From the NCBI GenBank assembly GCA_903842345.1, contig CAIMLR010000004.1:124001-188000 (forward strand): a stretch of 64,000 nucleotides of DNA. Direction: 5' to 3'. Every line of letters starts with the position of its first letter. Position 1 is the first letter of the stretch. Below the pieces are notes generated by a model. It was given only the letters and a program-made list of their open reading frames with translations, was not told the origin of the DNA and ran no database searches. The position numbers were made by a program, and so were the translations under genes. Below, in pieces: positions 40,001-55,607 of the stretch. Source of the stretch: an uncultured Myxococcales bacterium (GTDB lineage Bacteria; Myxococcota_A; UBA9042).

Positions 40001-43000
40001 GGTGCCGTCGGTCTTGGCGGTCTTGGCGCAAATGTAGGTGTTGATCGCGGTCGATTTGCACGTCCCCGCGTTGCACGTGTCGCTCAAGCCGGTGCAGTCG
40101 GGTGCAGCGCCGGCGGTGCACTTGCCGGCCTGGCACATGTCGTTCTGCGTGCAGCCGCTGCCGTCCGCGTCGCACGCCAAGCCGTTGGCCGCCGTCGCGC
40201 TGTGGCTGCATTTGCCGCCGACCGCGTCGCACACGTCAATGGTGCACGGATTGCCGTCGTCGCACTGCGCGGTGCTCACGCAGCAGCCGACAATCGCCGT
40301 GCCCGCGCACTTGCCGCCGCCGCAGATGTCGTTCTGCGTGCACGCGTCGCCGTCGTCACACGTCAGCGCGTTGTTCACGTGTTTGCAGCCGACCGCGGGA
40401 TCGCAGGAGTCCGTCGTGCACGCGATGCCGTCGTCGCAGTTGGGCGCGGAGCCCGGGATGCACGCGCCAGTGGTGCACGTGTCGCCGACGGTGCACGCGC
40501 TGCCGTCGCTGCACGGACCGCCGGCGTTGATGGCATTGGCCTTGCACGCGCCGCTGGCGGTGTCGCACGTCGTGACGCTGCAGAGCGTGTCCTTGGACGT
40601 GTCGCAGATGACCTTGGTCGCGGCGTTGGGCACGCACTTGTATGGCAAGGCGGACGTGTCGCAGATGAGCTTGCCCACGCACGGCGTCGGGTTGGGCTGC
40701 GCGTCGCAATCGGCCTGGTTCTGGCAGCTGCACTGGTTGCCGCCGCCCACGCACTTGGACGTGGTCGGGTCGCACGCGTCCCCGACCGTGCACGGGTTGC
40801 CGTCGCTGCACGTCAGGTTGTTGCCCGTGTGGGTGCAGCCGGTCTTGCTGTCGCACGCGTCGGTGGTGCAGGGGTTGGCGTCATCGCAAGGCGCGGCCAT
40901 GCCGCCCTGGCACGTTCCCGCGGCGCAGCTTTCCCCGACCGTGCACGGGTTGCCGTCGCTGCACGCGCCGCTCAAGTTGCTGTGCAAGCAGCCTTTGCCG
41001 GTGTCGCAGCTGTCCGCCGTGCAGTCCTTGCCGTCGTCGCAGCTGATCAGCGTGCCCGCGCACGTGCCGCCCGCGCAGAAGTCCTTGCTTGTGCATGCGT
41101 TGCCGTCGTCGCACGCGGAGCTGATGTTGGTGTTCTTGCACGCGCCGCTCGCCAGATCGCAGACGTCGGCTGTGCACGGATTGCCATCGTCGCAGCTGAC
41201 GAGTGCGCCGGCCTGGCAGCTGGCGCTGGCGTCGCACTTGTCGCCGGTCGTGCACGGATTGCCGTCGTCGCAGCTGGACCCGACCACCGCGATGAACAGG
41301 CAGCCCTTGGTGTTGTCGCATTGGTCAATCGTGCACGGGTTGCCGTCGGAGCACTTCTTGGCCGTGCCGCTGCACGCGCCGCCGGTGCAGTTGTCGCTGA
41401 CGGTGCACGCGATGCCGTCGTCGCACGCGCCGGTGAGGCTCGTGTACTTGCACACGCCCGTGACGCCGTCGCACGCGTCCGACGTGCACGGATTGCCGTC
41501 ATCGCAGACGACCGGCGCGCCGGCTTGGCACATGCCTTGCGCGTCACATTTTTCGCCGACCGAGCACGGGTTGCCGTCGTCGCAGCCCGCGCCCGCGACG
41601 AGCACGTGCGCGCAGCCGGTGGCAAGCTCGCAGCTGTCATTGGTGCAGCTGTTGCCGTCGTTGCAGCTCTTGCCCTTGCCCGCGCACAGTCCAGCGGTGC
41701 AGAGGTCGCCCGCGGTGCACGCGTTGCCGTCGTCGCACGGTCCGCCGGTCGGCGTGTTGTGACAGCCGGTTGCGTCGCAGCTGTCGTCCGTGCAGACGTT
41801 GCTGTCATCGCAGTTCTTGGCCGCACCCTGGCACACGCCGGTGCTGCAGTTGTCGCTCGTGGTGCACGGATCGCCGTCGTTGCAAGCCGCCGCCGTCGAC
41901 TTGTGGATACAGCCGCTCGTCGGGTCACACGCGTCGATGGTGCACGGATTCGCGTCGTCGCAGTTCTTGGACTTCGCGCCGGTGCACGCCCCGTCCGCGC
42001 ACTGGCCAGGCACTGTGCAGATGTCCGTCGCGCCGCAAGGACCGGTCGCGGGCGTGGCGACGCAGCCGCTCTTGGGATCGCAGGAATCGTCGGTGCAGTC
42101 GTTGCCGTCGTCGCAGTTCTTCAGCTTGCCCGTGCAGCTGCCCGCCGCGCACGCGTCGCCGGTCGTGCACTTGCTGCCGTCATCGCACGGCGCGGTCGCG
42201 GGCGTGTGCTTGCACGCTTTGGCGGCCGCGTCGCACGCGTCGTCGGTGCACGGATTGCCGTCGTCGCAGCTGATGTTGTCGGTCTTGCCGTCGCAGTCAT
42301 TGTCGGTGCCGTCGCAGACTTCCGTGCTGGCGGGCAACGCGCTGCACGCGGAGAGGCCGCTGGCGGAGCAGGTCCGCTTGCCCCCGCAGACGCCGTCGCT
42401 GTTCGCCGTGCTGCACGCGGTTGAAAGCCCCATCGTCTGCGCGCGGTTGTCGCAGCCGCACTGCTTGTCGTCGCGGATGCATTGCGCCAGCGGAAAGCCA
42501 TCGACGCTGACAACCGTCGTGCACGAATAGCCGCCAGGGCAAAGTGTGTTGGCGTCGCACTTGCCGCCGCCGCAGAAGTTGCCGATCAGCGACGCACCGC
42601 TCTTGTAGGCAACGCAGGCGCCGGTGCCGCCGGGGCCGTCCGCGCAATCCGCGTCCTGGTTGCACGGCTCGCACAGGCGGCCGAATGCCGGCTTGCAGAT
42701 CTTGCCCGCGCCGCCCGCGCTGCAGGTGTAGCCAGCGGGACAGACGTCGGTGCAGGTCGTCGCGCAGACTTTGCCGCCCGTGTCGTCCTGGCAGAAGCCG
42801 CTGTCGCACTGGCCGTCGGTCTTGCAGGGACAGCCCGCGCCGGTGCACGCGCTGACGTCGACCGGCACATCCGCTGGAACGTCGGCTTCGGCGTCAACGC
42901 CGGCATCGCCGACTGCGTCTGAGCCCAAGTTGGCGTCACTGGCACCGTCCGTGCTGACCGTGTCGAGAGGCGGCTGGTCCGTGCCATCCGGCAGGACTTG

Positions 43001-43129
43001 CGTATCCACGCCAGTGTCCGCGGTGACGACGACAACGCCGTTGGAGCCCGCCGTCGTGCCGCAAGAAGCGAGCGCGAGGACGGCGACGAGGACAAACACG
43101 CAACGAGCAGAACAGCGAACAGTGAACAC
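37016..43129 (-). CDS. Giant Cys-rich repeat lipoprotein with C-terminal AWxS propeller-like repeats
   Basis: About 2037 aa, the largest gene here. The signal CVFVLVAVLALASC is followed by an Asp/Thr/Val linker. A Cys-rich head (about residues 95-270) parallels that of the 12435 gene down to LCEPC and the MopE-like VCDGTDNDCDGKTDN. Residues about 275-1240 hold more than two dozen CTDC-type modules. The last 800 residues carry repeats of the form FVIAWxSxxQDGxxxGIxAQxFxxxGxxxGxExxxNT, a beta-propeller-like family of large secreted proteins. I choose the GTG at 43129 because AGGAGG lies five bases upstream and the signal peptide starts there; no nearer start fits. Function unknown; surface-exposed. 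Confidence 0.88.
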   Translation of the reverse strand: MFTVRCSARCVFVLVAVLALASCGTTAGSNGVVVVTADTGVDTQVLPDGTDQPPLDTVSTDGASDANLGSDAVGDAGVDAEADVPADVPVDVSACTGAGCPCKTDGQCDSGFCQDDTGGKVCATTCTDVCPAGYTCSAGGAGKICKPAFGRLCEPCNQDADCADGPGGTGACVAYKSGASLIGNFCGGGKCDANTLCPGGYSCTTVVSVDGFPLAQCIRDDKQCGCDNRAQTMGLSTACSTANSDGVCGGKRTCSASGLSACSALPASTEVCDGTDNDCDGKTDNISCDDGNPCTDDACDAAAKACKHTPATAPCDDGSKCTTGDACAAGSCTGKLKNCDDGNDCTDDSCDPKSGCVATPATGPCGATDICTVPGQCADGACTGAKSKNCDDANPCTIDACDPTSGCIHKSTAAACNDGDPCTTSDNCSTGVCQGAAKNCDDSNVCTDDSCDATGCHNTPTGGPCDDGNACTAGDLCTAGLCAGKGKSCNDGNSCTNDSCELATGCAHVLVAGAGCDDGNPCSVGEKCDAQGMCQAGAPVVCDDGNPCTSDACDGVTGVCKYTSLTGACDDGIACTVSDNCTGGACSGTAKKCSDGNPCTIDQCDNTKGCLFIAVVGSSCDDGNPCTTGDKCDASASCQAGALVSCDDGNPCTADVCDLASGACKNTNISSACDDGNACTSKDFCAGGTCAGTLISCDDGKDCTADSCDTGKGCLHSNLSGACSDGNPCTVGESCAAGTCQGGMAAPCDDANPCTTDACDSKTGCTHTGNNLTCSDGNPCTVGDACDPTTSKCVGGGNQCSCQNQADCDAQPNPTPCVGKLICDTSALPYKCVPNAATKVICDTSKDTLCSVTTCDTASGACKANAINAGGPCSDGSACTVGDTCTTGACIPGSAPNCDDGIACTTDSCDPAVGCKHVNNALTCDDGDACTQNDICGGGKCAGTAIVGCCVSTAQCDDGNPCTIDVCDAVGGKCSHSATAANGLACDADGSGCTQNDMCQAGKCTAGAAPDCTGLSDTCNAGTCKSTAINTYICAKTAKTDGTSCDDGLYCTTGETCKTGSCQGGVALDCASAGCTQGTCDETQKKCIGSPKVDNTPCDADNNGCTVNDVCKSGACVAGSAYQCAQPSGDPCNTWSCSSTGALSYQCKPTAKTLGTTCDDGLYCTINENCDGLGTCKNGAARDCSALTTQCTVGTCDETNDVCKSGNKTDGTACNDGDSCTATDTCKTGVCLGSNNACGDFKLTTFKSAYTAANPQASLVDMGSGRMRTAFANSATAIAGRSYRSDWSREWTEAALATTSSLSGSESLVGGPIAVPSAGGGHDVYWASDYSSNQTVWYYSGGNINACTGSVYSSTNGNVVYSSYAACSPYAGSQCISATRAYGGRHVSYQHFDSLDAPSGGVVDVFAVVNPACTLTQQVPITAFDVAPFSDGKRFIAWMQGGSLYRKIINANGTLYKDLGADATVKNFAMAVYQGDNSSILVWDDGAEIWGQLFYSNGTTNGSKFQLNTNSTGVQSWPRVVYEPATGIFIVAWNTDVNAGDLQAQVFFSDGTKAGSEFTVNTTTTGFQGNARLASHADGNFVIAYEDSSGKDGAGYGILGQWFDSGGNKVGTEKVIDVTTAGDQKYVSALGLGTGDVVLSWTNMADGTLYARKFSSTGLAQNGATEFIANATKTDEQQDPAVAVAGDGSFIVAWDSNLNDGSQQGVYFQRYSASGVVTGAETLANTTTNLAQITPAIGADSVGNFVLAWDSYGQDGNMNGIFGQRFTAAGAKAGTEFQMNQFSTNDQRRPSVAELPSGKFAAVWESNGQTGGAAYDVVMRCYDANGAALANELIVNTTTADKQQFAAIAPFADGSQKYIVVWQSYGEDSDGWGIYAQLMTYDCKAVGAPWKVNTTIAADQTWPKVAVDPTGKFVITWSSLSQDGDNYGIYAQAYDNTATKVGAETRLNTVTAYEQSHSAIAMLPSGKFVSAWQSVGEDESGLSTGWALKGGVFSATGAIAQIGLDWLFNTTFVNDQSQPAIAARADGSVVTVWRSNL

Positions 43130-43164
43130 GGGACCTCCTGGAACCAAAGCTGCGCGGGAGGATA

Positions 43165-43184
43165 GCGAAACTACGGAGTTTCGC
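43165..43184. promoter_or_regulatory. Perfect palindrome between the Cys-rich gene and the carotenoid operon
   Basis: GCGAAACT (43165-43172) and AGTTTCGC (43177-43184) flank a four-base ACGG centre. It lies in the 226-base divergent gap, 36 bases upstream of the Cys-rich gene start and about 170 bases before crtY. It could be an operator for a dimeric regulator or an RNA hairpin in the leader of the Cys-rich gene. No known consensus is matched. Confidence 0.45.
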
Positions 43185-43355
43185 ACAACCGGAAAGGTGC
43201 GCTGCCGACGCGCGGACGGACTGTTTCTTGCCCGCAGTGCAGCGATCCGAGGCCTGAACCGCGACATCCATGCGGTTGGTCGGGCGCGCCGCCCGCGCAT
43301 CCAACGCCCGCGCACGGCATCAAAACGCATGGCGCCCGATCGCGCTTGGGTCCGA

Positions 43356-44510
43356 ATGCCGCTTTCCTTCGACTACGCGCTCATCGGCGGCGGCCTGCAA
43401 AACGGCCTCATCGCGCTCGCGCTTCGCCATCGCCAACCGCAGGCCAGCATCCTGCTCGTCGAGCGTGACAGCGCGATCGGCGGCAATCACACCTGGTGCC
43501 TCCACGACGGCGACGTCGCGCCTGCCGCCATGGCTTGGCTGGCGCCCCTGCTCGTCCACCGCTGGCCGAGCTATGACGTGCATTTCACCGACTTGGACCG
43601 CCACGTCGCGCTTGGCTACGCCGCCATCACGTCGGAGCGCTTTGCTGCGATCGTCCACGCGGCGATGGCTGCTGGTCCGGGCGCGGTCTGGCTCAACGCG
43701 ACGGCGCGCGACATCGGGGCGCAGCACGTGACGTTGACCGACGGTCGCCACGTGCGCGCGAAGGTGGTGATTGCGGCGCTCGGTCCCGACGAGGCGGCGA
43801 CGCCCGCGAACACCGGTTGGCAGAAGTTCCTCGGTCTGGAGATCGCTACGCGGGCGCCGCACGGCTTGCAGACGCCGATCCTGATGGACGCGCGCGTGCC
43901 GCAGGTTGACGGCTTTCGCTTTCTCTACGTCCTGCCGCTGGATCCGCACCGTTTGCTTGTGGAGGACACTGTATTCTCCGACCGTCCGCACCTCGCCGCC
44001 AGCGCGATGCGCGCGAACGCCTTGGCCTACGCGGCGCAGCGCGGCTGGGAAGTCGCGGCGATTCTCCGGGAAGAGCGCGGCGTGCTGCCGATGCCGTGGA
44101 CCGCGCCGCCCCTGACCGACGATCCCCGTGGCCCGGTCCTGGCCGGAATGCAGGGCGGCTGGTTTCATCCCGCGACCGGCTATTCACTGGCCGTGGCCGC
44201 GCGTCTCGCCGATTGGCTGGCTTGCGTGCCGCCCGACGAAGCGCGCGGTCCGGGGCTGCAAACGCTGCGCGCGCGGCACGCCGATCAGGCATCTTTTGCC
44301 CGCAAGCTGAACTGGGCGCTGTTCCGCATGGCCGCCCCGGCGCATCGCAACACCATGATGTCGCGCTTCTATCGGCGGCCGGACGAGGTCATTCGACGGT
44401 TCTTCGCGCTGGACATGCATCTCTCAGACCGACTGCGCATCGTACTGGGTGCGCCGCCCCGCAAGATGAACTTGTGGCCGCGCAGCAGCCAGGAGGAGGT
44501 CAACGCATGA
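43356..44510 (+). CDS. crtY: Lycopene beta-cyclase, CrtY type
   Basis: Membrane-associated flavoprotein that closes beta-ionone rings on lycopene-type ends. The 384 aa product aligns along its whole length with Pantoea CrtY: FAD site DYALIGGGLQNGLIALAL, GGNHTWCLHD, WLAPLLVHRWPSYDVHF, HGLQTPILMDA, GFRFLYVLPLDPHRLLVEDT and GWFHPATGYSLAVA. I take the ATG at 43356, which gives the usual short N-terminus; one at 43329 would add nine residues. It opens the carotenoid operon, and its stop overlaps the crtE start by four bases (ATGA). Confidence 0.93.
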   Translation: MPLSFDYALIGGGLQNGLIALALRHRQPQASILLVERDSAIGGNHTWCLHDGDVAPAAMAWLAPLLVHRWPSYDVHFTDLDRHVALGYAAITSERFAAIVHAAMAAGPGAVWLNATARDIGAQHVTLTDGRHVRAKVVIAALGPDEAATPANTGWQKFLGLEIATRAPHGLQTPILMDARVPQVDGFRFLYVLPLDPHRLLVEDTVFSDRPHLAASAMRANALAYAAQRGWEVAAILREERGVLPMPWTAPPLTDDPRGPVLAGMQGGWFHPATGYSLAVAARLADWLACVPPDEARGPGLQTLRARHADQASFARKLNWALFRMAAPAHRNTMMSRFYRRPDEVIRRFFALDMHLSDRLRIVLGAPPRKMNLWPRSSQEEVNA

Positions 44511-45568
44511 GTCCGCCGCAAGTCAGCACAGCCGTCCTCCGGGAGACCGGGGAGCCGCAGCCGAATCAGCCGCTCGCGCACCTGAATGCGCTGGCTGACC
44601 CGTCGGCGTTGGTGGCGATGCTCGGTCCGGAAACGGCTGATGTGCCGATGCGACTGTGGAACGCGGCCCTCTACGACCCGGCGCGGGCATTCCTGGCTGA
44701 GCCGGGCAAAGGCTTTCGCGCCAATCTTGTGCACATGGGCTGGGACCTCGCCGGTGGCGAGCCGGACGCGTGTCCACCGGTGCTTGCGGTCATCCTGGAG
44801 TGGCTGCACGGCGGCTCGCTGATCGTCGACGACATTGAGGATGGCTCGCTGACCCGCCGCGGCCAGCCGGCGCTGCACGTGAGCCACGGTCTGCCGCTGG
44901 CGCTCAATACCGGGAATTTCCTGTATTTTGCCGCGCAGATGCAGATCGACCTGCTGCCCGTCCCCGCGGCGACGCGCGCGCAGTTGCAGGAGGACGTTGT
45001 CCACGCGCTTGTGCGTTGCCACCACGGCCAGGCGCTGGATTTGGCGGCGCACGTTGAAGCGCTGACGCAAGGTGAAGTGGCGGCGGTAGTCCGCGCGACG
45101 ACGGCACTGAAGACCGGCGCGCTCACGGCGCTGGCGGCGGTGCTCGGTGCGCGGGCGACGGGCGCTGACGCAGCGACGGTGGACGCGATTGCCCAGTTTG
45201 GCACGGATCTGGGCAACGGCCTGCAAATGCTGGACGACCTCGGTTCGATCCTCTCTGCCAAGCGCCACGACAAGGGACTTGAAGACCTGCGCGGCGGCCG
45301 TCCCACTTGGGCGTGGGCGTGGCTGGCGGAGGACGTGGACCCGTTCACGTTTGCGCGCCTCCAGACCGCGCTGCGGCACGTGATGGCGGGCGAACCGGCG
45401 AATGCGCTGCTGACTGAATTGCATGACCGGCTCAGCCACGTCGGTCGCGCGCGCGTGGGTGTGCATCTGGATGGCGCGGTGGCGCGGCTGCGCGAGCGCC
45501 TGGGGCCGACGGCAAATCTGGCCAAAGTAGTGGCGGAATTGGAACGATTGAGGAGCAGCTATGTCTGA
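44507..45568 (+). CDS. crtE: Geranylgeranyl diphosphate synthase-type polyprenyl synthase
   Basis: Makes the C20 precursor for phytoene. The 353 aa product has the trans-prenyltransferase helices with the first Asp-rich motif intact (VDDIEDGSLTRRG near residue 105) and GKGFRANL near the start. The second motif reads MLDDLGSIL near 241: the usual third Asp of DDxxD is Ser. Other conserved parts (HGQALDL, KTGAL) are present, so I expect activity, perhaps with altered metal or chain-length handling. AGGAGGAGG precedes the ATG, and the gene overlaps crtI by eight bases. Confidence 0.88.
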   Translation: MSPPQVSTAVLRETGEPQPNQPLAHLNALADPSALVAMLGPETADVPMRLWNAALYDPARAFLAEPGKGFRANLVHMGWDLAGGEPDACPPVLAVILEWLHGGSLIVDDIEDGSLTRRGQPALHVSHGLPLALNTGNFLYFAAQMQIDLLPVPAATRAQLQEDVVHALVRCHHGQALDLAAHVEALTQGEVAAVVRATTALKTGALTALAAVLGARATGADAATVDAIAQFGTDLGNGLQMLDDLGSILSAKRHDKGLEDLRGGRPTWAWAWLAEDVDPFTFARLQTALRHVMAGEPANALLTELHDRLSHVGRARVGVHLDGAVARLRERLGPTANLAKVVAELERLRSSYV

Positions 45569-47141
45569 GCAAATTCGCGGTGCAGTCATTGGTTCAGGTT
45601 TTGGCGGCATCGCCGCAGCGATTCGCCTGCAGGCCGCTGGGGTCCAGACGACGATTTTTGAAGCGCAGGATCAGCCCGGCGGCCGCGCGCGCGTGTTCCA
45701 CGCCAAGGGCTACACGTTTGACGCCGGCCCGACCGTCATCACCGCGCCGGAAAGCCTGGAAGAACTGTTCGCGCTGGTTGGCCGCACGCTGTCTGAAGAG
45801 GTCGAACTGCTGCCCGTGACGCCGTTCTACCGGCTTGTCTGGGACGACGGCGACAAGTTTGACTACGACGGCAACAGCGAGTCGATGATTGCCCAGATCC
45901 GCGCCCGCAATCCGGACGACGTGGCCGGCTACGAGCGCTTCGTCGACTATTCCAAGGCCGTGTTTGAGGCCGGCTACGAGAAGCTCGCGGGCAAGCCGTT
46001 CCTGCGGTTCATGGACATGGTCAAGGTCGCGCCGCAGTTGGCCAAGCTGCGCGCGGATCGCTCCGTGTACGCGACGGTCGCGGGTTTCGTGGAGAACGAC
46101 CACGTGCGGCAGGCGCTGTCGTTCCACTCCCTGCTCGTTGGCGGCAATCCGTATGAGACGAGCTCGATCTACACGCTCATCCACTACCTGGAACGCCACT
46201 GGGGCGTGTTCTTCCCGCGCGGCGGTACGGGCGAGCTCGTGCAAGGGCTGCTGCGGCTGTTCCAGTCGCTGGGCGGGGAGCTGCGCTTGTCGTCGCCGGT
46301 GACGCAGATTGACGTCCAGCAGCTGGGCGAAAAAACGGTGCACTGCATCGATTCGGCGACGGGGGAGCAGGAAATCTTTGATTTTGTCGTCTCCAACGCG
46401 GACGTCCATCACACCTACAAGAAGCTGTACCGGAATCACGCCAAGGCGCAGAAGCGCGCCAGGAAGCTCGAGAAGATGGACTGGTCGATGGGCCTTTTTG
46501 TGCTCTATTTCGGCACGGATCGGCCGTACAAGGACGACGTCGCGCACCATACCGTGGTCTTTGGCCCGCGCTACAAGGAGTTGCTGGAGGAGATCTTCCA
46601 CGGCCACGCCCTGCCCGACGACTTCAGCCTGTACCTGCACGCGCCCACGCACACCGATCCGACGATGGCGCCGGAGGGCTGCGGCGCGTTCTACGTGCTG
46701 TCGCCGGTTCCTCATTTGGGCAATGCCGCGATTGACTGGAAGACCGTAGCGCCGCAGTACGCCGAGAAGCTGCTCGCGCACCTGGAGACGCACCTCCCGG
46801 ATCTGCGGCAGCACGTCGTCACCAAGAGCTGGCTGACGCCCGAGGATTTCCGCGACGACCTGAACGCGTATCAAGGCGCGGCGTTTTCCGTGGCGCCGAC
46901 GCTGACGCAGAGCGCGTGGTTCCGGCCACACAACCGCGATCAGGACATTCCGGGGTTGTACATCGTCGGTGCGGGCACCCATCCGGGCGCCGGCGTGCCG
47001 GGCGTGATCAGCTCCGCCAAAGCGACAGTGGAAGTCATCGCCGCGGATTTCTGCCTCCCCAGCGCGGATCCCGTCACGGTCGCGGTCATGCGCCAGCGGC
47101 TGGCCAAACTGGCCGGCGAGCGGCATCGCAAGGTGGCCTGA
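45561..47141 (+). CDS. crtI: Phytoene desaturase
   Basis: FAD-dependent desaturase that converts phytoene toward lycopene. The 526 aa product has the dinucleotide fold GSGFGGIAAAIRLQAAG (residues 11-27) followed by PGGRARVF and the substrate-channel region FDAGPTVITAPESL. The C-terminal CrtI signature GLYIVGAGTHPGAGVPGVIS is intact. The flow SFHSLLVGGNPYETSSIYTLIHYLERHWGVFFPRGGT matches bacterial CrtI. It lies between crtE and crtB, which is the standard order of use. The stop is two bases before crtB. Confidence 0.95.
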   Translation: MSEQIRGAVIGSGFGGIAAAIRLQAAGVQTTIFEAQDQPGGRARVFHAKGYTFDAGPTVITAPESLEELFALVGRTLSEEVELLPVTPFYRLVWDDGDKFDYDGNSESMIAQIRARNPDDVAGYERFVDYSKAVFEAGYEKLAGKPFLRFMDMVKVAPQLAKLRADRSVYATVAGFVENDHVRQALSFHSLLVGGNPYETSSIYTLIHYLERHWGVFFPRGGTGELVQGLLRLFQSLGGELRLSSPVTQIDVQQLGEKTVHCIDSATGEQEIFDFVVSNADVHHTYKKLYRNHAKAQKRARKLEKMDWSMGLFVLYFGTDRPYKDDVAHHTVVFGPRYKELLEEIFHGHALPDDFSLYLHAPTHTDPTMAPEGCGAFYVLSPVPHLGNAAIDWKTVAPQYAEKLLAHLETHLPDLRQHVVTKSWLTPEDFRDDLNAYQGAAFSVAPTLTQSAWFRPHNRDQDIPGLYIVGAGTHPGAGVPGVISSAKATVEVIAADFCLPSADPVTVAVMRQRLAKLAGERHRKVA

Positions 47142-47143
47142 AG

Positions 47144-48106
47144 ATGCCAAGTCACATCAACGCCCAAGCGCTCGCCGCCGCGTCCATCGCCAAGAATTCC
47201 AAGTCGTTTGCGCTGGCGAGCCGACTCCTGCCGCGACGCGTGCGGGACGACGCAGTCGTGCTCTATGCGTGGTGCCGCTATGCCGATGACGCGGTAGATG
47301 AAGCCGAGTCGCCCCTGGCGGCGCGCACGGCGCTGACGCGGCTGGACCAGGAGCTGGCGGCGATCTACGACGGACAGATGCAGGGGCAACCGCTGCTGGC
47401 GGCGCTGCAGGAAATGCTGCAGCGGCGGCAGATTCCCCAGCTCTATCCGCAGGAGCTGCTGGCCGGGATGCGCATGGACGTGGACGGCGTGCGCTACGGC
47501 GATTCCGCGACGCTGATGCTGTACTGCTGGCGCGTCGCCGGCGTCGTGGGCCTGATGATGTGCCACGTGATGGGTGTGACGTCCGACCGCGCGCTGCAGC
47601 AAGCGAGCGACCTTGGCATCGCGATGCAACTGACCAACATTTGCCGCGACGTGGCGGAAGACTGGCAGCGCGGGCGGCTGTACCTGCCGGCGGACGTGCT
47701 CGCGCGTCACGGGCTGCAGCACTGGCCGGCGATGCTGGGCGGGCCGCTGGCGGAGAAGCGGGAAGGTGAAGTGGCGCCGGTCGTCGCGGAGCTGCTCGGC
47801 GTGGCGGATCGCTACTATCAGTCCGGCGCGCGCGGTCTGACCGCCTTGCCGTGGCGGTGCGCGTTGGCGATCGCAGTGGCGAGCGCCGTCTATCGCGACA
47901 TCGGTCGCGTGCTGACGGCCCAGGGCCATGACCCGTTCGCAGGTCGGGCGCATACAACGTTGGCCCGCAAACTTTGGCTTGTGGCGCGAACGACGCTTGC
48001 GCAGCTCGGCCAGCTGCCCGCGCGGATGCGCACGCTCGCGGACGCGCAAGTCCCCCAGACGTTGCTGACCGGGCCCGCGGAGATGCGGCGCGCGCGGGAG
48101 ACGTGA
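47144..48106 (+). CDS. crtB: Phytoene synthase
   Basis: Condenses two geranylgeranyl diphosphates to phytoene. The 320 aa product has the squalene/phytoene synthase signatures YAWCRYADDAVDEA (first DxxxD motif), GMRMDVDGVRY, YCWRVAGVVGLMM and QLTNICRDVAEDWQRGRLYLP (second motif with the metal-binding Asp/Glu). AAGGTGG lies before the ATG. It starts two bases after crtI and its stop abuts the start of crtD, so all are one transcript. Confidence 0.95.
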   Translation: MPSHINAQALAAASIAKNSKSFALASRLLPRRVRDDAVVLYAWCRYADDAVDEAESPLAARTALTRLDQELAAIYDGQMQGQPLLAALQEMLQRRQIPQLYPQELLAGMRMDVDGVRYGDSATLMLYCWRVAGVVGLMMCHVMGVTSDRALQQASDLGIAMQLTNICRDVAEDWQRGRLYLPADVLARHGLQHWPAMLGGPLAEKREGEVAPVVAELLGVADRYYQSGARGLTALPWRCALAIAVASAVYRDIGRVLTAQGHDPFAGRAHTTLARKLWLVARTTLAQLGQLPARMRTLADAQVPQTLLTGPAEMRRARET

Positions 48107-49660
48107 ATGGCGGCGCTGGGCAACAAACCCACGGCGATCGTCGTGGGTGCCGGCATGGGCGGCCTCGTGGGCGCTGTGGAGCTGGCCAGCCAGGGCTGGC
48201 GCGTGCAGCTGTTTGATGGCGCACCGGCGCTGGGCGGCAAGATGCGGCAAGTTGCCGTTGGTCAGAAACAAATCGACGCAGGGCCGACCGTCCTGACGCT
48301 GCGCGACGTCTTTGACGACGTGTTCGCCCGCGCCGGAACGCGGCTGGAACACCACGTGACGCTGGAGCCGATGGCGATTCTCGCGCGCCACGCTTGGGTG
48401 GATGGCTCGACGCTTGACCTTCATGCCGACGTAGATCGCTCCGCTGGCGCAATTGCCGACTTTGCCGGCGCGCGGGAAGCCGAGGGCTTCCGCCGATTCC
48501 TCGCCCACGCCCGGAGCATTTGGCAGACCGTCGAAGGCCCCTTCGTCCGCGCCCAGCGCCCCACGCCGTTCGGCATCCTGCGCGACCACGGGATGCGCGC
48601 CCTGCCCATGCTGGCGAACATCGACAGCCACCGCACGCTGTGGCGCGCGCTCGAGACGTACTTCCGCGATCCGCGGCTTGTGCAGCTCTTTGGCCGCTAC
48701 GCGACGTACACCGGCTGTTCGCCGTTCCTCGCGCCCGCGACGTTGAGCCTCATCGCGTGGGTCGAGAGTGCGGGCGTCTGGCGCGTGCGGGGCGGGATTC
48801 ATCAGCTGGCGCAAGCGCTGGGCGATGTGCTGCTGGGTCTGGGCGGGGAAATCTTCCTGAACACGAACGTTGCGCAGATTACCGCGGACAAGGGCCGGGC
48901 GACCGGCGTGATGCTGGCCAACGGCGAGCGCATTGCCGCGGACTGCGTGCTGTTTGCCGGCGATGCGTCCGCGCTGGGCACGGGCTTGTTGGGCGGCGCG
49001 GTGAAACCGGCCGTGGCGCCGACGCCAGCGGCCAAGCGCAGTCTTTCAGCGCTGACGTGGTGTCTGGATGCGCAGACGGCAGGCTTTCCGCTTGTGCACC
49101 ACAACGTGTTCTTTGGCGCGGATTCCGCCAGTGAATTTCAGGCGATCTTCCAGGCGGGCGCGTTACCCCCGAGTCCAACCGTGTATGTGTGCGCTCAGGA
49201 TCGCGACGACCGCGCGACGGCGGAGGGCCCCGAGCGCCTGCTGGTGCTTGTGAATGCACCTGCACGCGCGGACGTGCAGCCGCTGTCGGATGCGGCGCTG
49301 GCCCGTTGCGAGAGCGCGACGTTTGACCATTTGCAGCAGCTCGGGCTCTGCATCGCGCCAACGACGTCGTGTGTGCGCACGTCGCCCGCCGAGTTTGCTG
49401 AGCGATTTCCGGCGTCGGGCGGAGCACTGTACGGCGCGGCCAATCACAGTTGGACCGCCACGCTCAACCGCCCCGGCGCACGTACCGCCATCGCCGGCCT
49501 TTACCTCGCTGGCGGCACTGGCCATCCCGGCGCCGGCGTTCCCATGGCCGCCTTGAGCGGACGCCTCGCCGCCGACGCCATCTGCGCCGATCACTCCGCC
49601 ACTACCCCAGCGCGCGCACGCGGTCCGGCACGCTGGGAAATCGCCCGCGAGGTCCCCTGA
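48107..49660 (+). CDS. crtD: CrtD-type hydroxycarotenoid 3,4-desaturase (second CrtI homologue)
   Basis: A second FAD-dependent carotenoid desaturase of 517 aa: VVGAGMGGLVGAVELASQGW, LGGKMRQVAVG, IDAGPTVLTLRDVFDDVF and C-terminal GLYLAGGTGHPGAGVPMAALSG. It differs from the neighbouring crtI in the substrate region (YFRDPRLVQLFGRYATYTG SPFLAPATLSLIAWVE), which matches the CrtD subfamily that acts on 1-hydroxy carotenoid ends. The presence of crtC in the same operon supports the CrtD role. The ATG directly abuts the crtB stop, and the TGA overlaps crtZ by one base. Confidence 0.85.
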   Translation: MAALGNKPTAIVVGAGMGGLVGAVELASQGWRVQLFDGAPALGGKMRQVAVGQKQIDAGPTVLTLRDVFDDVFARAGTRLEHHVTLEPMAILARHAWVDGSTLDLHADVDRSAGAIADFAGAREAEGFRRFLAHARSIWQTVEGPFVRAQRPTPFGILRDHGMRALPMLANIDSHRTLWRALETYFRDPRLVQLFGRYATYTGCSPFLAPATLSLIAWVESAGVWRVRGGIHQLAQALGDVLLGLGGEIFLNTNVAQITADKGRATGVMLANGERIAADCVLFAGDASALGTGLLGGAVKPAVAPTPAAKRSLSALTWCLDAQTAGFPLVHHNVFFGADSASEFQAIFQAGALPPSPTVYVCAQDRDDRATAEGPERLLVLVNAPARADVQPLSDAALARCESATFDHLQQLGLCIAPTTSCVRTSPAEFAERFPASGGALYGAANHSWTATLNRPGARTAIAGLYLAGGTGHPGAGVPMAALSGRLAADAICADHSATTPARARGPARWEIAREVP

Positions 49661-50148
49661 TGTTGCGAGAGCCGCAGTTCTGGCTGGTTTTTTTGGCGTT
49701 CGCCGTCGCTATGGAGTTCTGGGCGATGCTTCTGCACGGCCGCCTGTGGCACGGCCCGTGGTGGCCCGCGCACCGGTCCCATCACCGGCCACGCACCGGC
49801 TGGTTTGAGGCCAACGACGTCTTCGCGGCGCTGCACGCCAGCATCGCGATTTCCCTCATCATCGGCGGCTGTGAGCAAGTCTTTGGCGCGTTCTCCCACG
49901 CCTGCGTCGCGGCCGGCTGGGGGATGACGGCCTTTGGCGTCTCCTATTTTCTCGTTCACGACGGCCTGATCCACGGCCGCCTGCCGATCGGCTTCCTCGG
50001 CCGCGTCCGGTGGCTGCGGCGTATCCGCAATGCCCACAGCGTGCATCACAAATTGGACGCCGCGCCGTACGGTCTGTTTCTCGGCCCATGGGAACTCCGC
50101 CGCAGTCTCGCGCAAACTGGCAAGGCCCGGCGCGATCAGCGCGCCTGA
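49660..50148 (+). CDS. crtZ: Beta-carotene 3-hydroxylase, CrtZ type
   Basis: Membrane di-iron hydroxylase that adds the 3-OH to beta-ionone rings. The 162 aa product has the four histidine clusters of the fatty-acid-hydroxylase superfamily: LLHGRLWH, HRSHHRP, LVHDGLIHGR and NAHSVHHK, and hydrophobic helices between them. It follows Pantoea CrtZ closely (RTGWFEANDVFAALHAS, GMTAFGVSYFLVHDGL). The start overlaps the crtD stop (TGATG). A 75-base spacer then separates it from crtC. Confidence 0.93.
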   Translation: MLREPQFWLVFLAFAVAMEFWAMLLHGRLWHGPWWPAHRSHHRPRTGWFEANDVFAALHASIAISLIIGGCEQVFGAFSHACVAAGWGMTAFGVSYFLVHDGLIHGRLPIGFLGRVRWLRRIRNAHSVHHKLDAAPYGLFLGPWELRRSLAQTGKARRDQRA

Positions 50149-50223
50149 CGCGCATCCTTCATCGGCGAGGCGCATCTCACGATACGGCGCTCCAGAGAAA
50201 CGCCCAAAGGCATCCCGCGCGCC

Positions 50224-51375
50224 ATGATTGAACTCGCCGATGCCACGCAACCACCGCAGCAGAGCCATTGGCAACAACCCGGCGGATTCTGCTGGTGGTA
50301 CGCGGAAGCGGGCGACGACGCGGGCAATGGCATCGTGCTGATCTGGGCATTTGGCCTGCCTTTTTTGCCCGGTCACGCCAACGCCGTACGCCGTGGCGTG
50401 GGTACGCTGCCGACCGAGCGCCCGTCCCTCAACGTCGTTGTCCACCGCGCCGGCCAGCCGGCCTTCTACGTGCTGCGCGAGGTGCGGGAGGCGACGTGGG
50501 ATGGCGAGGGCCGCTGGCGCTTTGACGACACGCACATCGAGAGTGTGCAGGAGAATGGCAAGCTGGCGCTCCGCGTGACGCTTGACGTGCCGGTGGTGGG
50601 TGAGGCGGAGCCGCTGACCGGATCGCTGGTGCTGGCGGGACGGGTCGCGCAGACGGCCGGGCACGCGCTGGGCTTTGGCGCGAGTCCGCACCAGTGGACG
50701 CCGCAGGTGGGTCCCTCTTTTGCCAGCGCAGCGGTGCAGTGCGGCGGCTTTCGCTGGCGGCTCGCGGGGCGCGGCTATCATGACCGCAACGCCAGCCCGT
50801 TGCCGCTCCACGCGCTGCAGATCCAGACCTGGCTGTGGGCGCGCGCGGCGCTGCCGGATCGCGACCGCATCGTCTACGCGCTGTGGCCCAAGGACGGCTC
50901 GCCCGTCCAAGTGCACGGTCTGGACGTCCTTGAGGACGGGCGCGTAGCGATTGCCGAGGCGCTGGACCTGACGACAGCTGGCGCGACAACAACGCGCTAC
51001 GGCATGCCGACCTGGCGGCAACTGACGGTGCGCCGCGCTGGGATGCCCTGGCTGGACCTCCGGCTCGATCGCCGCGTCGACGACGGGCCTTTCTACCTGC
51101 GCTTTTTGCCGGGTGCGACGACGCCCGACGGCCCTGTGGTCGCGGCGAGCGCGGAGATCATCGTCCCCGATCGCATTGATCTGGCCCGGCATCGGCCGTT
51201 CGTGCGGATGCGCGTGTCGGGTCCGGGGCCGCGGGCGAGCGCGTGGCTGCCGCTGTTTGAGGGCGCGGCGCAGACGCGGGCGCGGCGTCTGTGGCGGCGG
51301 TGGCTGCCGGCGGTGCTGCGCGGCGACGAGAGCATGCGCGCAGAACTGGACCCTCGGCCCCCCCGCGAGCGGTAG
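50224..51375 (+). CDS. crtC: Carotenoid 1,2-hydratase (CrtC family)
   Basis: Adds water across the 1,2 double bond of an acyclic carotenoid end. The 383 aa product has the CrtC signatures GGFCWWYAEAGDDAGNGIVLIWAFGL and, further in, GFRWRLAGRGYHDRNASPLPL, where the GYHDxN histidine and aspartate are the conserved catalytic positions. It is longer than Rhodobacter CrtC. It is last in the run and its start has no strong ribosome site. With crtD it implies modification of one open end of the carotenoid, while crtY and crtZ act on the other. Confidence 0.87.
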   Translation: MIELADATQPPQQSHWQQPGGFCWWYAEAGDDAGNGIVLIWAFGLPFLPGHANAVRRGVGTLPTERPSLNVVVHRAGQPAFYVLREVREATWDGEGRWRFDDTHIESVQENGKLALRVTLDVPVVGEAEPLTGSLVLAGRVAQTAGHALGFGASPHQWTPQVGPSFASAAVQCGGFRWRLAGRGYHDRNASPLPLHALQIQTWLWARAALPDRDRIVYALWPKDGSPVQVHGLDVLEDGRVAIAEALDLTTAGATTTRYGMPTWRQLTVRRAGMPWLDLRLDRRVDDGPFYLRFLPGATTPDGPVVAASAEIIVPDRIDLARHRPFVRMRVSGPGPRASAWLPLFEGAAQTRARRLWRRWLPAVLRGDESMRAELDPRPPRER

Positions 51376-51432
51376 CGCGAACGTACGAGGCGTCCACGGG
51401 CGGCGGTCGGTCAGCCTCCCTCGCTCCGCGAG

Positions 51433-52284
51433 TCATCCGCCTTGGGCCGGCGTTCGCGCTTCCAGCATCCGCGCCAGCACCAACAGCCGCACGGCCTGCA
51501 TCACGCCCGATTCCGTGTCCCAGGACCGCGTCCGCGTCGCCACCGAGGTCTTGCTGCCCAAGCGATCCGAGGAGGACTGCGGCGGCAGGGTCGTCGACGC
51601 CAGCTTGCCACCGGCCCGCTCCAGCCGCGGATCCCACGCTGCCGGCACGCGGGTGCGCAGCGCTTCCTGCAGCGCCAGAAAATTGGCCATCGCGCCGTGG
51701 CGCATCACCGGGCCAAGCCCGCTCCAATCCGTGCCTTCCGCGTCGATCCGGACGAGCTCGCCGCGCCCGGCCAGCCACAGCACACAGTAAAAACGGCTGT
51801 CGGTTTCGATGGTGCGCTCGGTCGTCGTCTTCTTGGAGGAGAGCGGCAGCCCCATCGCCATCGCCGCCATGTTCGTGGTCGTGCGCGTCGTCGCCGTCGT
51901 TGTTTCCTGCGCTGAATCCGCGCGGCACGGCAACGCAAGCGCAATCTCCGGCCAGCCGATGTGCTCCCACGTCATCTCCGCCGCGCCGTCGCGAAAACCG
52001 CAACGCAACTGGCCTTCGTTCCAGGAAGCGGCACGGGTCCGCCGAACCTCGGGCGTGCGATCCAGCGCCGCCTGCGCCATGGCCCACGCCGGCAGCCCGA
52101 CCGCACGCAGCTCCGCCGCCCGCATGGACACGAGCTGCGCGTCCTCGTGCCAGCCCGCCAAATACGGCAGACCGCGCAAGAGCGGCGCCTTGTGGTCATA
52201 CGCCGTGCCGCCGAGCTGCCGCGCGAGGGTCTGCGCCGCCAGCTCGGGGTTCTGCGCGGGCGGATGCAGCAGGAGGGCAAACAT
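51433..52284 (-). CDS. Hypothetical protein
   Basis: A 283 aa cytoplasmic-looking protein with no signal peptide. I do not recognise the family. The first 90 residues (ALLLHPPAQNPELAAQTLAR to LPAWAM) look like a small alpha/beta domain. The middle has a low-complexity Thr run (TTTATTRTTTNMAAM), and the C-terminal part contains helix-rich LLVLARMLEARTPAQGG. An AAGGAA ribosome site precedes the ATG at 52284. It converges on crtC and lies 78 bases downstream of the glycyl-radical activase gene, so it could be part of that operon's distal end. Confidence 0.6.
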   Translation of the reverse strand: MFALLLHPPAQNPELAAQTLARQLGGTAYDHKAPLLRGLPYLAGWHEDAQLVSMRAAELRAVGLPAWAMAQAALDRTPEVRRTRAASWNEGQLRCGFRDGAAEMTWEHIGWPEIALALPCRADSAQETTTATTRTTTNMAAMAMGLPLSSKKTTTERTIETDSRFYCVLWLAGRGELVRIDAEGTDWSGLGPVMRHGAMANFLALQEALRTRVPAAWDPRLERAGGKLASTTLPPQSSSDRLGSKTSVATRTRSWDTESGVMQAVRLLVLARMLEARTPAQGG

Positions 52285-52362: not shown

Positions 52363-53112
52363 CTAGCCCTCGACCGTCACCGCGACGCCGCGCTGCTCAA
52401 GCTGCTGCCTGACCTGTGCAAGCCTCGCGTCGGACGGTGGCTCGAGGCCTTGCACGCCCGGCTCAAGCCCCATCGCCCGGTACTTGTCCACATACAGCCG
52501 ATGGTAAGGGACGAGGCAGAGCGCCAACGCGCCGTGGGTGATGAGGAACTGCGCCATTGCGTCGATGTTCTCCGCGTCGTCGTTCAGACCCGGGATCAGC
52601 GGCATGCGAAACTGCACGTTGGCGCCCTGCTGCAAAAGCCAAGCCGCGTTGGCGTGAATGCGCTCCGTCGCCACTCCCGTCAACTGCCGGTGCCGCGGCG
52701 AATCCATGTGCTTCAGGTCGAACTGGAACAGGTCGACAAGGTCCAGCACGCCGGCGAAATGCGCTTGCGGCACGGCGCCGGACGTCTGCACGCACGTGTG
52801 CAGCCCGCGGCCCTTGGCGCCCTCCAGCAGCGCGCGGACCGGCGCGAGGTGCAGGAGCGGCTCGCCACCCGAGACCGTCAGGCCGCCCCCGCTCAGCGCG
52901 TAGTAGCTTTCATCCTTGAGCACTTCCGCGAGGATCGCGGCAATCAGCATCGGCTTGGCGTGACCGTGGCCAAACGCCTCCGGATTTTGGCACCACCCGC
53001 ACCGCAGCGGGCAGCCCTCCAAGAAGACGGTGGTGCGAATGCCTGGACCGTCGTGGATCGAGAAGCGCTGGACGTCAAAGACGCGGCAGGTTTCTGGATC
53101 GTTCAGCCGCAC
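52363..53112 (-). CDS. Glycyl radical enzyme activating protein (radical SAM)
   Basis: A 249 aa radical SAM enzyme that installs the glycyl radical on its partner using a [4Fe-4S] cluster and SAM. The N-terminus FDVQRFSIHDGPGIRTTVFLEGC is typical. The cluster is held by CPLRCGWC (CxxxCxxC, Cys34, 38 and 41). SGGGLTVSGGEPLL binds SAM, and PYHRLYVDKY is the usual C-terminal part. It lacks the ferredoxin-like insert with extra clusters found in many dehydratase activases, so it is the short PflA-like form. The start is a GTG overlapping the enzyme gene by ten bases. Confidence 0.94.
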   Translation of the reverse strand: MRLNDPETCRVFDVQRFSIHDGPGIRTTVFLEGCPLRCGWCQNPEAFGHGHAKPMLIAAILAEVLKDESYYALSGGGLTVSGGEPLLHLAPVRALLEGAKGRGLHTCVQTSGAVPQAHFAGVLDLVDLFQFDLKHMDSPRHRQLTGVATERIHANAAWLLQQGANVQFRMPLIPGLNDDAENIDAMAQFLITHGALALCLVPYHRLYVDKYRAMGLEPGVQGLEPPSDARLAQVRQQLEQRGVAVTVEG

Positions 53113-55607
53113 GTGGCGAACTCCGTGCGGCCGATGATGTCCTCCTGAATGGCGTGACCGAGGCGCGTGAAGTACGCGGAGTAACCGGAGACGCGCACGA
53201 TGAGGTCAGCGTAATCCTCAGGACGCGCCTGAGCGGCGCGCATCGTCGCCGTGTCGACCGCGTTGAACTGCAGGTGAAAGCCGCCTTTGTCAAAATAGCC
53301 GCGGATGAGGTGCGCCACGCTCTCCACGCCCTTGTCCGAGCGCAGGATGCCGACGGGCAGGCGCAGGTTCAGCGAATTGCCGTAACCGATGTGCGTGTGG
53401 TCGATCCGCGTCAACGAGTTCAACGTCGCCGTAGGACCGCACCGCTCCGCGCCGTTGCTCGGCGACATGCTGTTGGAGAGCGGCCTGCCCGCGCCGCGAC
53501 CGTCTGGCGTCGCAGGTTCCAATGCGCCTTCGTAGACGTTCAAGCCGTAGGAGATGAGACTGGCCTTGAAATGGCCGCCGCAGATCGTGGCGCGCGACGA
53601 GACCATGGCGCAGAAGCGGGCGACCACGTCCCGCGCGAGTCCGTCGACGGCGGGGATGTCGTTGCCAAACCGCGGTCCGGCCAATACCCGCTGGCGCAGC
53701 GCCTCGTGACCGCGGAAGTTGCTGGCGAGCGCATCGCGCAACTCGCCCATCGTCATCGCGCGCTCGTCAAAGACCATCGCGCGGATCGCCGCGAGCGAGT
53801 CGACCGCCGTGCCCAAGCCGCCGCCGCCAACTGCGCCGAAGTTGTAGCGTGCCCCGCCAGCGGTCATGTCCTTGGCATTGGCGATGCAGCCGTCGATCGT
53901 ACTGGAGATGAGGGGATTGTGGAAACGTTCCGCCCAGATGGCATCGCGGAGATTGGTCGCATCCGTGACCCAGCCGACCATGGCGTCGAGCTGCGTGTAG
54001 AAGGCGGTGAGGAAGTCGTCGAACGTCGCCATGGCCGCGGGATCGCCGGTGTCCGCGCCATCCTGGTTACCGAAGAACGTGGTCTTGCCGCGGTTGAAGA
54101 CGAGGTCGAGCGCCGTTGGAAAGTAGATCTTGGAGCCGCCGGTCGCGCCGTACGTGTCGCCGTTGCCGCTGGGTTCGACGCAGCCAACGAGGCAATACTC
54201 CCGTGCATCTTCAACGGCGTACCCGTCGCGCACCATCGCGGCAATTGCGGTCTCGTCGTTCAGAAAAGCCGGCGAATTGGTCTCGCGGTGGATCGCGACG
54301 ACCTCGCGGACAAAGCTCTTGGGACTCTTATTGGAGACGCGGAAGGACGCGGTCGTCGCCAAATTCGTGTTGGCAATCGCTTGGATGAACAAGTACGTCA
54401 GTGCGTTTGTGGCGTCCTCACCTTGGGCATCCACGCCGCCCAGCGTGATGTTTTCTACGTCCGAGCCGAGGTGGTTCAGTTCCACACCGCCGATATTGGG
54501 CCAGATGATGACGTTGTTGTTGAGCTTGATGATGAACTCTTCCAGCAGGCGCAATGCGTGCGGACGGGTCAGCGCGCCGCTCGCAAGGTCGGCGGCAAAG
54601 TACGGGTACAGCAGCTGATCGACGCGCCCAGGCGTGATGCCGCTGCCCGCGCCGTAGCTGATGATGGCGGCATTTTGCGTGAACCACAGCGCCTGGAGCG
54701 CCTCGGCGAATGTCTGCGGCGGCAGCCAAGGCACGCGGTTGCAGGCGTCGGCGATGGCGTCCAACTCGGCGCGCCGTTCTGGATCCACGGTGTCGGCAGC
54801 CTGGGCGCTGGCAGCCGCTGCGAAGCGGTCGGAGAAATCGCGCATCGCTTGGCAGCTGAGTTCCACGCTCTCCAGGAACGCGCGCTCCTCGGCGGTCTGG
54901 GCGCTTTCTTGCCGCGCGCGCGCCGCCGCAGCAATCCCTGAAAAGCCCAAGCGCAGGACGTTCTTGTGGCCCAGCACGATGTGCGCTTGCGTGTCCGTGC
55001 ACCGACCGCGCCCCTTGATGTTGTCACCCGCGCCGCCACGCAGCGCCCGCAGGAGCCGCGGCAAGCGCGTCATGCTGGCCAGCACGGTCCGCTTCTGCTG
55101 GCCGTTCACCACGAGTCGCCAGAGTGAACGCGCGCCGAAACTGCGTAACTTGCGGCGGATTTCACCGGGTCTCACGCTCAATTGGCTCACGAGACCGTGC
55201 GCGCGGAACGCCGCAATCTTGGCGTCGCGGACCGTCTTGCCGGACCAGTAGGGGATCAGTTCGTCGTAGAGGAAGCGCTCATCGGATTCGGAGATGCGGT
55301 AGCCAAAGGCCTTCAACTCCTCCATCAGGTGGTCAAAAATGAAGATAAAGTCGCCGCGCTCCGGCGCAATCGGCGGCGCAATCAGGTGCGACGAGCGATT
55401 GCCCACCAGCAGCTCGTCCGGCTCAATCCGCACGGTCATGTTGGCAAACACGCACTGGAGCGCCCGCGCGGCGCGCAGGGAGGGGTGCTGCCCTTCCGTT
55501 TCGCGGTGCGCCTGCGTGTAGAACCGCGCACGCTCCATGCACAGCCAGTGTTCGGCGTTCAGCAGCCGGGCCTTTTGCGCCGCATTTTTCGCGTGCAGCT
55601 TGCTCAT
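53103..55607 (-). CDS. Glycyl radical enzyme, dehydratase/lyase branch, substrate unknown
   Basis: An 834 aa enzyme of the pyruvate formate-lyase superfamily. The thiyl-radical Cys is near residue 474 in YCLVGCVEPSG; the single Cys followed by Glu two residues on marks the lyase, dehydratase and decarboxylase branch rather than PFL, which has Cys-Cys. The glycyl radical loop near 809 is RVSGYSAYF, followed by QEDIIGRTEFATCG. Conserved barrel motifs include GSDVENITLGGVDAQGEDATN and NLRLP. It contains an extra basic helical stretch (TRLPRLLRALRGG) near 175-190. I cannot assign substrate. It overlaps tetR by four bases and the activase by ten. Confidence 0.93.
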   Translation of the reverse strand: MSKLHAKNAAQKARLLNAEHWLCMERARFYTQAHRETEGQHPSLRAARALQCVFANMTVRIEPDELLVGNRSSHLIAPPIAPERGDFIFIFDHLMEELKAFGYRISESDERFLYDELIPYWSGKTVRDAKIAAFRAHGLVSQLSVRPGEIRRKLRSFGARSLWRLVVNGQQKRTVLASMTRLPRLLRALRGGAGDNIKGRGRCTDTQAHIVLGHKNVLRLGFSGIAAAARARQESAQTAEERAFLESVELSCQAMRDFSDRFAAAASAQAADTVDPERRAELDAIADACNRVPWLPPQTFAEALQALWFTQNAAIISYGAGSGITPGRVDQLLYPYFAADLASGALTRPHALRLLEEFIIKLNNNVIIWPNIGGVELNHLGSDVENITLGGVDAQGEDATNALTYLFIQAIANTNLATTASFRVSNKSPKSFVREVVAIHRETNSPAFLNDETAIAAMVRDGYAVEDAREYCLVGCVEPSGNGDTYGATGGSKIYFPTALDLVFNRGKTTFFGNQDGADTGDPAAMATFDDFLTAFYTQLDAMVGWVTDATNLRDAIWAERFHNPLISSTIDGCIANAKDMTAGGARYNFGAVGGGGLGTAVDSLAAIRAMVFDERAMTMGELRDALASNFRGHEALRQRVLAGPRFGNDIPAVDGLARDVVARFCAMVSSRATICGGHFKASLISYGLNVYEGALEPATPDGRGAGRPLSNSMSPSNGAERCGPTATLNSLTRIDHTHIGYGNSLNLRLPVGILRSDKGVESVAHLIRGYFDKGGFHLQFNAVDTATMRAAQARPEDYADLIVRVSGYSAYFTRLGHAIQEDIIGRTEFATCG

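Follow-up and report, generated by a model that had tools for sequence, protein, structure and literature searches.

Gene content of the carotenoid operon

We analyzed a 64-kb stretch of DNA (the window; all coordinates count from its first base) from the genome of an uncultured member of the Myxococcota and focused on a carotenoid operon within it, crtY-crtE-crtI-crtB-crtD-crtZ-crtC (positions 43356 to 51375). The source assembly comprises 5,847,306 bases and is 95.71% complete, and the operon lies on contig C4. All seven genes are on the plus strand, start with ATG, are intact, and contain no internal stops; intergenic gaps range from −8 to +75 bases, and crtY and crtE overlap by 4 bases. 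An earlier reading of the DNA sequence alone (the original prediction) had named seven carotenoid genes here, and each was recovered, intact, in its place. A second genome of the same genus (G006; loci L010/L015) has the identical gene order, with per-gene identities of 68 to 86%, indicating that the arrangement is not due to chance and that the operon is real. The seven genes are probably cotranscribed and would together make a single C40 carotenoid.

Most of the genes are readily assigned to families. The product of crtY (43356 to 44510; lycopene beta-cyclase; 384 amino acids) scored 325.3 bits with TIGR01789 (cutoff, 215.2) and matched PF05834 (E = 1.2e-74), and that of crtI (45561 to 47141; phytoene desaturase; 526 amino acids) scored 660 bits with TIGR02734 (cutoff, 238.1). 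The crtE-type geranylgeranyl diphosphate synthase (44507 to 45568; 353 amino acids) matched PF00348 (E = 1.6e-34) and has a DDxxD motif at residue 108, and the crtB product (47144 to 48106; phytoene synthase; 320 amino acids) matched PF00494 (E = 1.2e-75). Both lie above their Pfam cutoffs, and neither reached an NCBIfam equivalog cutoff (e.g., CrtB scored 229.8 bits with NF045921, under the cutoff of 500). The crtD product (48107 to 49660; 1-hydroxycarotenoid 3,4-desaturase; 517 amino acids) scored 648.7 bits with NF045637 (cutoff, 580). NCBIfam and Pfam scans of the seven genes detected no ketolase, 2'-hydroxylase, or glycosyltransferase, in agreement with the original prediction.

The crtZ product (49660 to 50148; beta-ring 3-hydroxylase; 162 amino acids) matched no NCBIfam model at an E value of 0.001 and no Pfam model above its cutoff, the sole Pfam match being to the unrelated DUF4223 (E = 0.026, below cutoff). 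No sequence match to solved structures was found, and a PADLOC scan was empty. A tblastn search linked it to a gene adjoining crtB on Pantoea plasmids (37% identity over 95% of its length; annotated "sterol desaturase family") and, among the matches listed (annotations for 20 of 109 matching records), to one "beta-carotene hydroxylase" of Pseudomonas silvicola. It contains the motifs HxxxxH, HxxHH, HDxxIH, and HxxHH, which we take to be those of CrtZ. A clear crtZ is thus missed by both NCBIfam and Pfam, which is a gap in these libraries.

A divergent CrtC homolog

The last gene of the operon, crtC (50224 to 51375; 383 amino acids), encodes the putative carotenoid 1,2-hydratase. The original prediction regarded it as a proteobacterial CrtC. 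Instead, it belongs to a divergent clade from the Myxococcota, Gemmatimonadota, and Actinomycetota, and it scored 24.8 bits with NF045922, the only CrtC model to give a match, against a cutoff of 400. Ordinary CrtCs, encoded by four genomes of the same bacterial family, are likewise below this cutoff, though far nearer to it (143.7 to 220.7 bits). We aligned 58 clade members (the window protein and 57 of the 80 loci described below; truncated, frame-broken, and many closely related sequences were left out by choice), 49 of which matched NF045922 at an E value of ≤1e-3. An hhalign comparison of this alignment with the four ordinary CrtCs (one of them a fragment) gave a probability of 99.7 and an E value of 3.7e-27 over 298 columns.

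The catalytic residues point in the same direction. Alanine mutants of Rubrivivax CrtC at H239, W241, Y266, and D268 are described as inactive (PMC4717167). The window protein has catalytic candidates at H156, W158, Y185, and D187 in the pattern HxW..YxD, which is invariant in all 58 aligned members and occurs at 77 of the 80 clade loci, the other three being truncated.

The AlphaFold model of the window hydratase is of high quality (mean predicted local distance difference test score [pLDDT], 93.9). It aligned with AttH (2ich) at a Z score of 20.4 over 278 residues (Foldseek E value, 7.0e-12), with 25-phosphosteroid lyase at 18.6, and with kievitone hydratase at 18.1, followed by the next fold at only 7.4. 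AttH is also the closest known structure reported in published CrtC modeling (Hiseni et al.; PMC4717167). As a control, the ordinary CrtC of G001 returned AttH first and then the same pericyclases (see below) and phosphosteroid lyase; kievitone hydratase was not among its best 50 matches, in a comparison based on a poor model (pLDDT, 69.4) built from only four sequences. The window hydratase is accordingly predicted to have the AttH/kievitone hydratase fold. Sequence searches of solved structures returned no match for the hydratase alone or for its alignment, and among plasmid records there was one weak partial match, from Methylobacterium aquaticum (28% over 54%).

Pfam is uninformative about the hydratase either way. 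The window protein matched only two unrelated Pfam models, both under their cutoffs, and the CruF domain (PF04240) was not reported for it. The literature assigns CrtC to PF07143 (PMC4717167). This model, whose presence in the library was unchecked, was not reported at an E value of 10 for the window protein or for three ordinary CrtCs, and we therefore dropped the silence of Pfam as evidence against a hydratase.

Several observations weigh against a hydratase and hence against the pathway proposed below. In addition to the very low model score, identity between the clade and the ordinary CrtCs is 21% over the 298 columns. The HxW..YxD residues were matched to those of Rubrivivax by pattern, without an aligned Rubrivivax sequence; the spacing from Trp to Tyr is 27 residues in the window protein and 26 to 33 in the clade, compared with 25 in Rubrivivax and 24 to 25 in ordinary CrtCs, and His is replaced by Gln in one of four ordinary CrtCs (G003). 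The highest Z scores in the VIA-align search (22 to 24, above AttH) went to pericyclases (Fsa2 and Phm7) and CghA, so the fold alone is no proof of hydration. Four of six expressed CrtCs in a published assay showed no lycopene hydration (PMC4717167). The gene might encode a different AttH/pericyclase-like enzyme acting on the end of the carotenoid (e.g., an isomerase or another kind of lyase), as the top pericyclase matches, the close structural match to 25-phosphosteroid lyase, and the model score would suggest. We consider this improbable, because the CrtC catalytic pattern is invariant, the ordinary CrtC control yields largely the same list of folds, a comparable slot in sister genomes is filled by an ordinary CrtC, and the gene accompanies crtD, the family name of which implies a 1-hydroxycarotenoid substrate. 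By its residues, profile, and predicted fold, the protein is a CrtC homolog in a divergent clade, and it very probably functions as a hydratase.

Distribution of the two CrtC kinds in the bacterial family

The bacterial family is represented by 22 genomes, five of which (G000, G006, G007, G018, and G020) have the divergent hydratase and four (G001, G003, G017, and G019) an ordinary CrtC. No genome has both; weak cross-matches between the kinds (G003, G018, and G020) coincide in position, and we let the score decide between the two. The ordinary CrtC gene directly follows crtD in G003, which is of the same genus as the window, and G019 has the order crtD-C-Z. G001 and G017 have crtY-E-I-B-C-Z with the ordinary kind, and crtD is on another contig. 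All seven genomes with a CrtD match of at least 288 bits carry one CrtC kind, compared with 2 of the 15 remaining genomes (G007 and G020, the latter on a 4.8-kb contig). The 288-bit line was our choice (CrtI-type genes reach 258.5 bits with the same model), and the counts ignore the relatedness of the genomes. The only match to the CrtD model at an E value of ≤1e-40 in G007 (locus L016) is its crtI.

CruF was found in G002, G010, and G014 and gave no match (PF04240) in the genome containing the window. That genome likewise lacks a second divergent hydratase, with one match only, and a search of it with NF045922 gave no match.

Breadth of the divergent clade

A scan of named genomes with two peptide patterns of the divergent clade identified 81 relatives of the hydratase, for which 80 loci were kept; the patterns are specific to this clade, so the abundance of other CrtCs cannot be read from the scan. 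Gene neighborhoods were counted for 50 loci, those where the match was of sufficient length and was followed downstream by 4 kb or more of sequence. A CrtD-type desaturase is present at 48 of these (the exceptions are L016 and L045), a GT2 glycosyltransferase gene at 33, and both GT2 and an acyltransferase at 26, of which 25 also have CrtD. The two loci with a divergent CrtC and no CrtD nearby may specify simpler 1-hydroxycarotenoids. Only two loci (L015 and L062) have crtZ. The usual nonactinobacterial layout is crtB-crtI-crtE-crtY divergent from hydratase-(GT2-acyltransferase)-crtD, and several such loci have every gene on one strand. The cyclase in the one GT2/acyltransferase-type cluster scanned is of the TIGR01790 type and below the CrtY cutoff. 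Loci labeled Mycobacteriaceae (e.g., L049, L053, and L055) contain hydratase-GT2-acyltransferase-crtD with no crtY, -E, -I, or -B matches nearby, a cassette that would presumably fit pigments of the phleixanthophyll ester type.

In a sample of 377 Myxococcota genomes, 107 match the hydratase at an E value of 1e-30. By score, 72 of these have the divergent kind (71 at ≥250 bits and one fragment at 167.5 bits) and 35 the ordinary kind (≤156 bits), with none having both; this split was our own. Scoring was limited to five candidates in each genome, and ordinary CrtCs were underdetected (G001, G003, and G017 were missed), so that both counts are minimum values and the absence of genomes with both kinds is no more than suggestive.

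A quick tree groups the window protein with L015 (support, 99), then L016 (98), and then a group of eight (100), and a long branch divides the divergent clade from three ordinary CrtCs. One locus labeled Deltaproteobacteria (L071) lies inside the Actinomycetota clade (support, 100), reflecting misbinning or gene transfer, and labels such as Bifidobacterium breve and Klebsiella pneumoniae, found on some records, are hardly credible.

Proposed pathway and product

We propose that the operon makes a monocyclic carotenoid of the saproxanthin type, a reading to which we assign a probability of about 0.6. CrtE, CrtB, and CrtI would produce lycopene, CrtY would close one end into a beta ring (gamma-carotene), and CrtZ would hydroxylate the ring at C-3. 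At the open end, the divergent CrtC would add water across C-1'/C-2', after which CrtD would desaturate C-3'/C-4' of the hydrated end. Hydration may proceed as proposed for Rubrivivax CrtC, in which case D187, primed by H156 and Y185, with W158 close by, would protonate the end double bond and water would quench the resulting cation. The main product would then be a 3,1'-dihydroxy, 3',4'-didehydro carotenoid, which we take to be saproxanthin; likely by-products are zeaxanthin and open-chain hydroxycarotenoids. What we observed is the gene order, the homologies, the conservation of catalytic residues, a predicted fold, and the colocation with CrtD; from these we infer the enzyme activities, the single ring, and the identity of the pigment.

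The gene set for this pathway is complete in the operon (i.e., a beta-cyclase, a 3-hydroxylase, a 1,2-hydratase, and a 3,4-desaturase). The flexixanthin genes reported for Algoriphagus are crtE, B, I, cruF, D, Ycd, W, and Z (PMC10784355), and the operon is functionally equivalent to this set minus crtW, which supports the saproxanthin-type product of the original prediction. Flexixanthin is saproxanthin with an added keto group, and the Bacteroidota pathways share with the proposed one a 3-hydroxy ring, a 1'-hydroxy-3',4'-didehydro end, and crtE, -B, -I, -D, and -Z; they differ in using a CruF hydratase, a CrtYcd cyclase, and, for flexixanthin, CrtW (PMC10784355). The original prediction also contrasted the use of CrtC here with that of CruF, a substitution that is not new for monocyclic carotenoids. 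In the proposed pathway of Myxococcus xanthus, CrtC acts on gamma-carotene and, with CrtD, leads to a monocyclic carotenoid (PMC8156234), and the CrtC of Chlorobium is reported to accept monocyclic substrates and to leave acyclic ones unhydrated (PMC6013536).

Three further points count against the proposed product. TIGR01789, the family of the window CrtY, presumably includes bicyclases, which leaves room for zeaxanthin as the dominant pigment. At 95.71% completeness, the assembly could lack some genes for pigment decoration. A scan of positions 42900 to 51600 found no sigma-70-like promoter; terminator-like sites in the same interval were at chance level (6 observed versus 5.4 expected). CrtY might close both ends, making zeaxanthin the main pigment and leaving to CrtC and CrtD only a minor uncyclized pool. 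The match of CrtY to TIGR01789, with its presumed bicyclase members, would fit this, as would two family genomes with crtY and crtZ, namely, G016, which has neither CrtC kind nor CruF, and G014, which has a CruF match in place of CrtC. We nonetheless regard two rings as unlikely, since crtC shares a run with crtY and crtZ in the genus and in the family, for both CrtC kinds, which suggests a joint product. In Rhodothermus, the formation of gamma-carotene has been attributed to a CrtY (PMC5822342). A saproxanthin-type carotenoid as a main product is slightly favored.

A monocyclic carotenoid that is glycosylated or acylated by enzymes encoded elsewhere in the genome would be in keeping with the GT2 and acyltransferase genes beside many hydratase relatives and with the M. 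xanthus pathway, which ends in an ester (PMC8156234). The original prediction called for a search of the rest of the genome for CruG-, CrtW-, and CrtG-like genes. The CruG-like GT2 glycosyltransferase of the related clusters has no close relative in this genome (best match, 40 bits) and is absent from the window; the search covered the GT2 type only, and acyltransferases were sought only in the 64-kb window, where none was matched. With no CruF, second CrtC, or GT2 of the usual type in the genome, an unglycosylated product is expected, and we consider a decorated one rather improbable. As for CrtW and CrtG, the latter of which presumably falls in PF04116, the genome has four FA_desaturase and five FA_hydroxylase matches. 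We examined these nine proteins as candidate ketolases or 2-hydroxylases, and none matched a carotenoid model in NCBIfam; their only matches, far under cutoff, were to the ornithine lipid hydroxylase OlsE (three proteins) and a fatty acid desaturase (one protein). This is weak evidence of absence, because the presence of CrtW and CrtG models in the library was unchecked.

Some Myxococcota carry photosynthesis gene clusters (PMC10576062). None of the 22 family genomes, including that of the window, matched the reaction center subunits (PF00124), and we rejected a role of the operon in a phototroph for these genomes. The carotenoid is most likely a protective membrane pigment.

Flanking genes

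Upstream of and divergent from crtY is a gene (37016 to 43330, minus strand) for a very long protein that is rich in cysteine and has 10 stretches of Dicty_CTDC repeats; the protein has 78% identity to one beside the L010 operon over the part present there. Directly downstream of the operon (52363 to 55607, minus strand) are genes for a pyruvate formate-lyase (PFL)-like glycyl radical enzyme and a radical S-adenosylmethionine (SAM) protein that probably activates it; the operon at L010 is likewise followed downstream by a 64% match to the radical SAM protein.

Relation to known systems and implications

The carB cluster of M. xanthus (myxobacton ester), also from the Myxococcota, resembles the window operon in having CrtE, CrtI, CrtB, CrtD, CrtC, and a cyclase and in its proposed monocyclic product with a hydrated and desaturated open end. 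It differs in its CrtYc/CrtYd cyclase pair, its putative glycosyltransferase and acyltransferase (orf6 and orf9), and a keto ring instead of a 3-hydroxy ring (PMC8156234). The window hydratase is likened to Rubrivivax gelatinosus CrtC by HxW..YxD, by profile homology through the ordinary CrtCs, and by the AttH-like fold, and to Chlorobium tepidum CrtC by the substrate preference published for the latter (PMC6013536). The available portions of the Salinibacter model and Chlorobiales papers contain nothing on the hydratase, and we recognized no description of the divergent clade in the portions retrieved from the open literature on saproxanthin, CrtC/CruF, and Myxococcota. Saproxanthin-type carotenoids reportedly also occur in Planctomycetes. 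As far as our searches show, the pathway is of a known type, the combination of CrtC and CrtD with CrtY and CrtZ is new in this lineage, and the main novelty is the large divergent CrtC branch, as set against the four ordinary CrtCs of the family.

More tentatively, and at somewhat less than even odds, this branch may be a broad, uncatalogued second kind of CrtC, specialized for monocyclic carotenoids, in the Myxococcota, Gemmatimonadota, and Mycobacteriaceae-type Actinomycetota, usually with CrtD and often with a glycosyltransferase and an acyltransferase. As such, it might supply the 1',2'-hydratase still missing for some glycoside ester carotenoids (e.g., the salinixanthin of Rhodothermus). 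The authors of the Rhodothermus marinus study found no CrtC or CruF homolog (PMC5822342), which makes the clade a candidate hydratase to look for there. Relatives of the hydratase are common and usually lie beside CrtD, yet the standard CrtC model barely recognizes the window member, and annotation pipelines are therefore likely to overlook hydration in such clusters and mispredict the products. The prediction would add an uncultured lineage of myxobacteria to the sources of carotenoids of the saproxanthin type.

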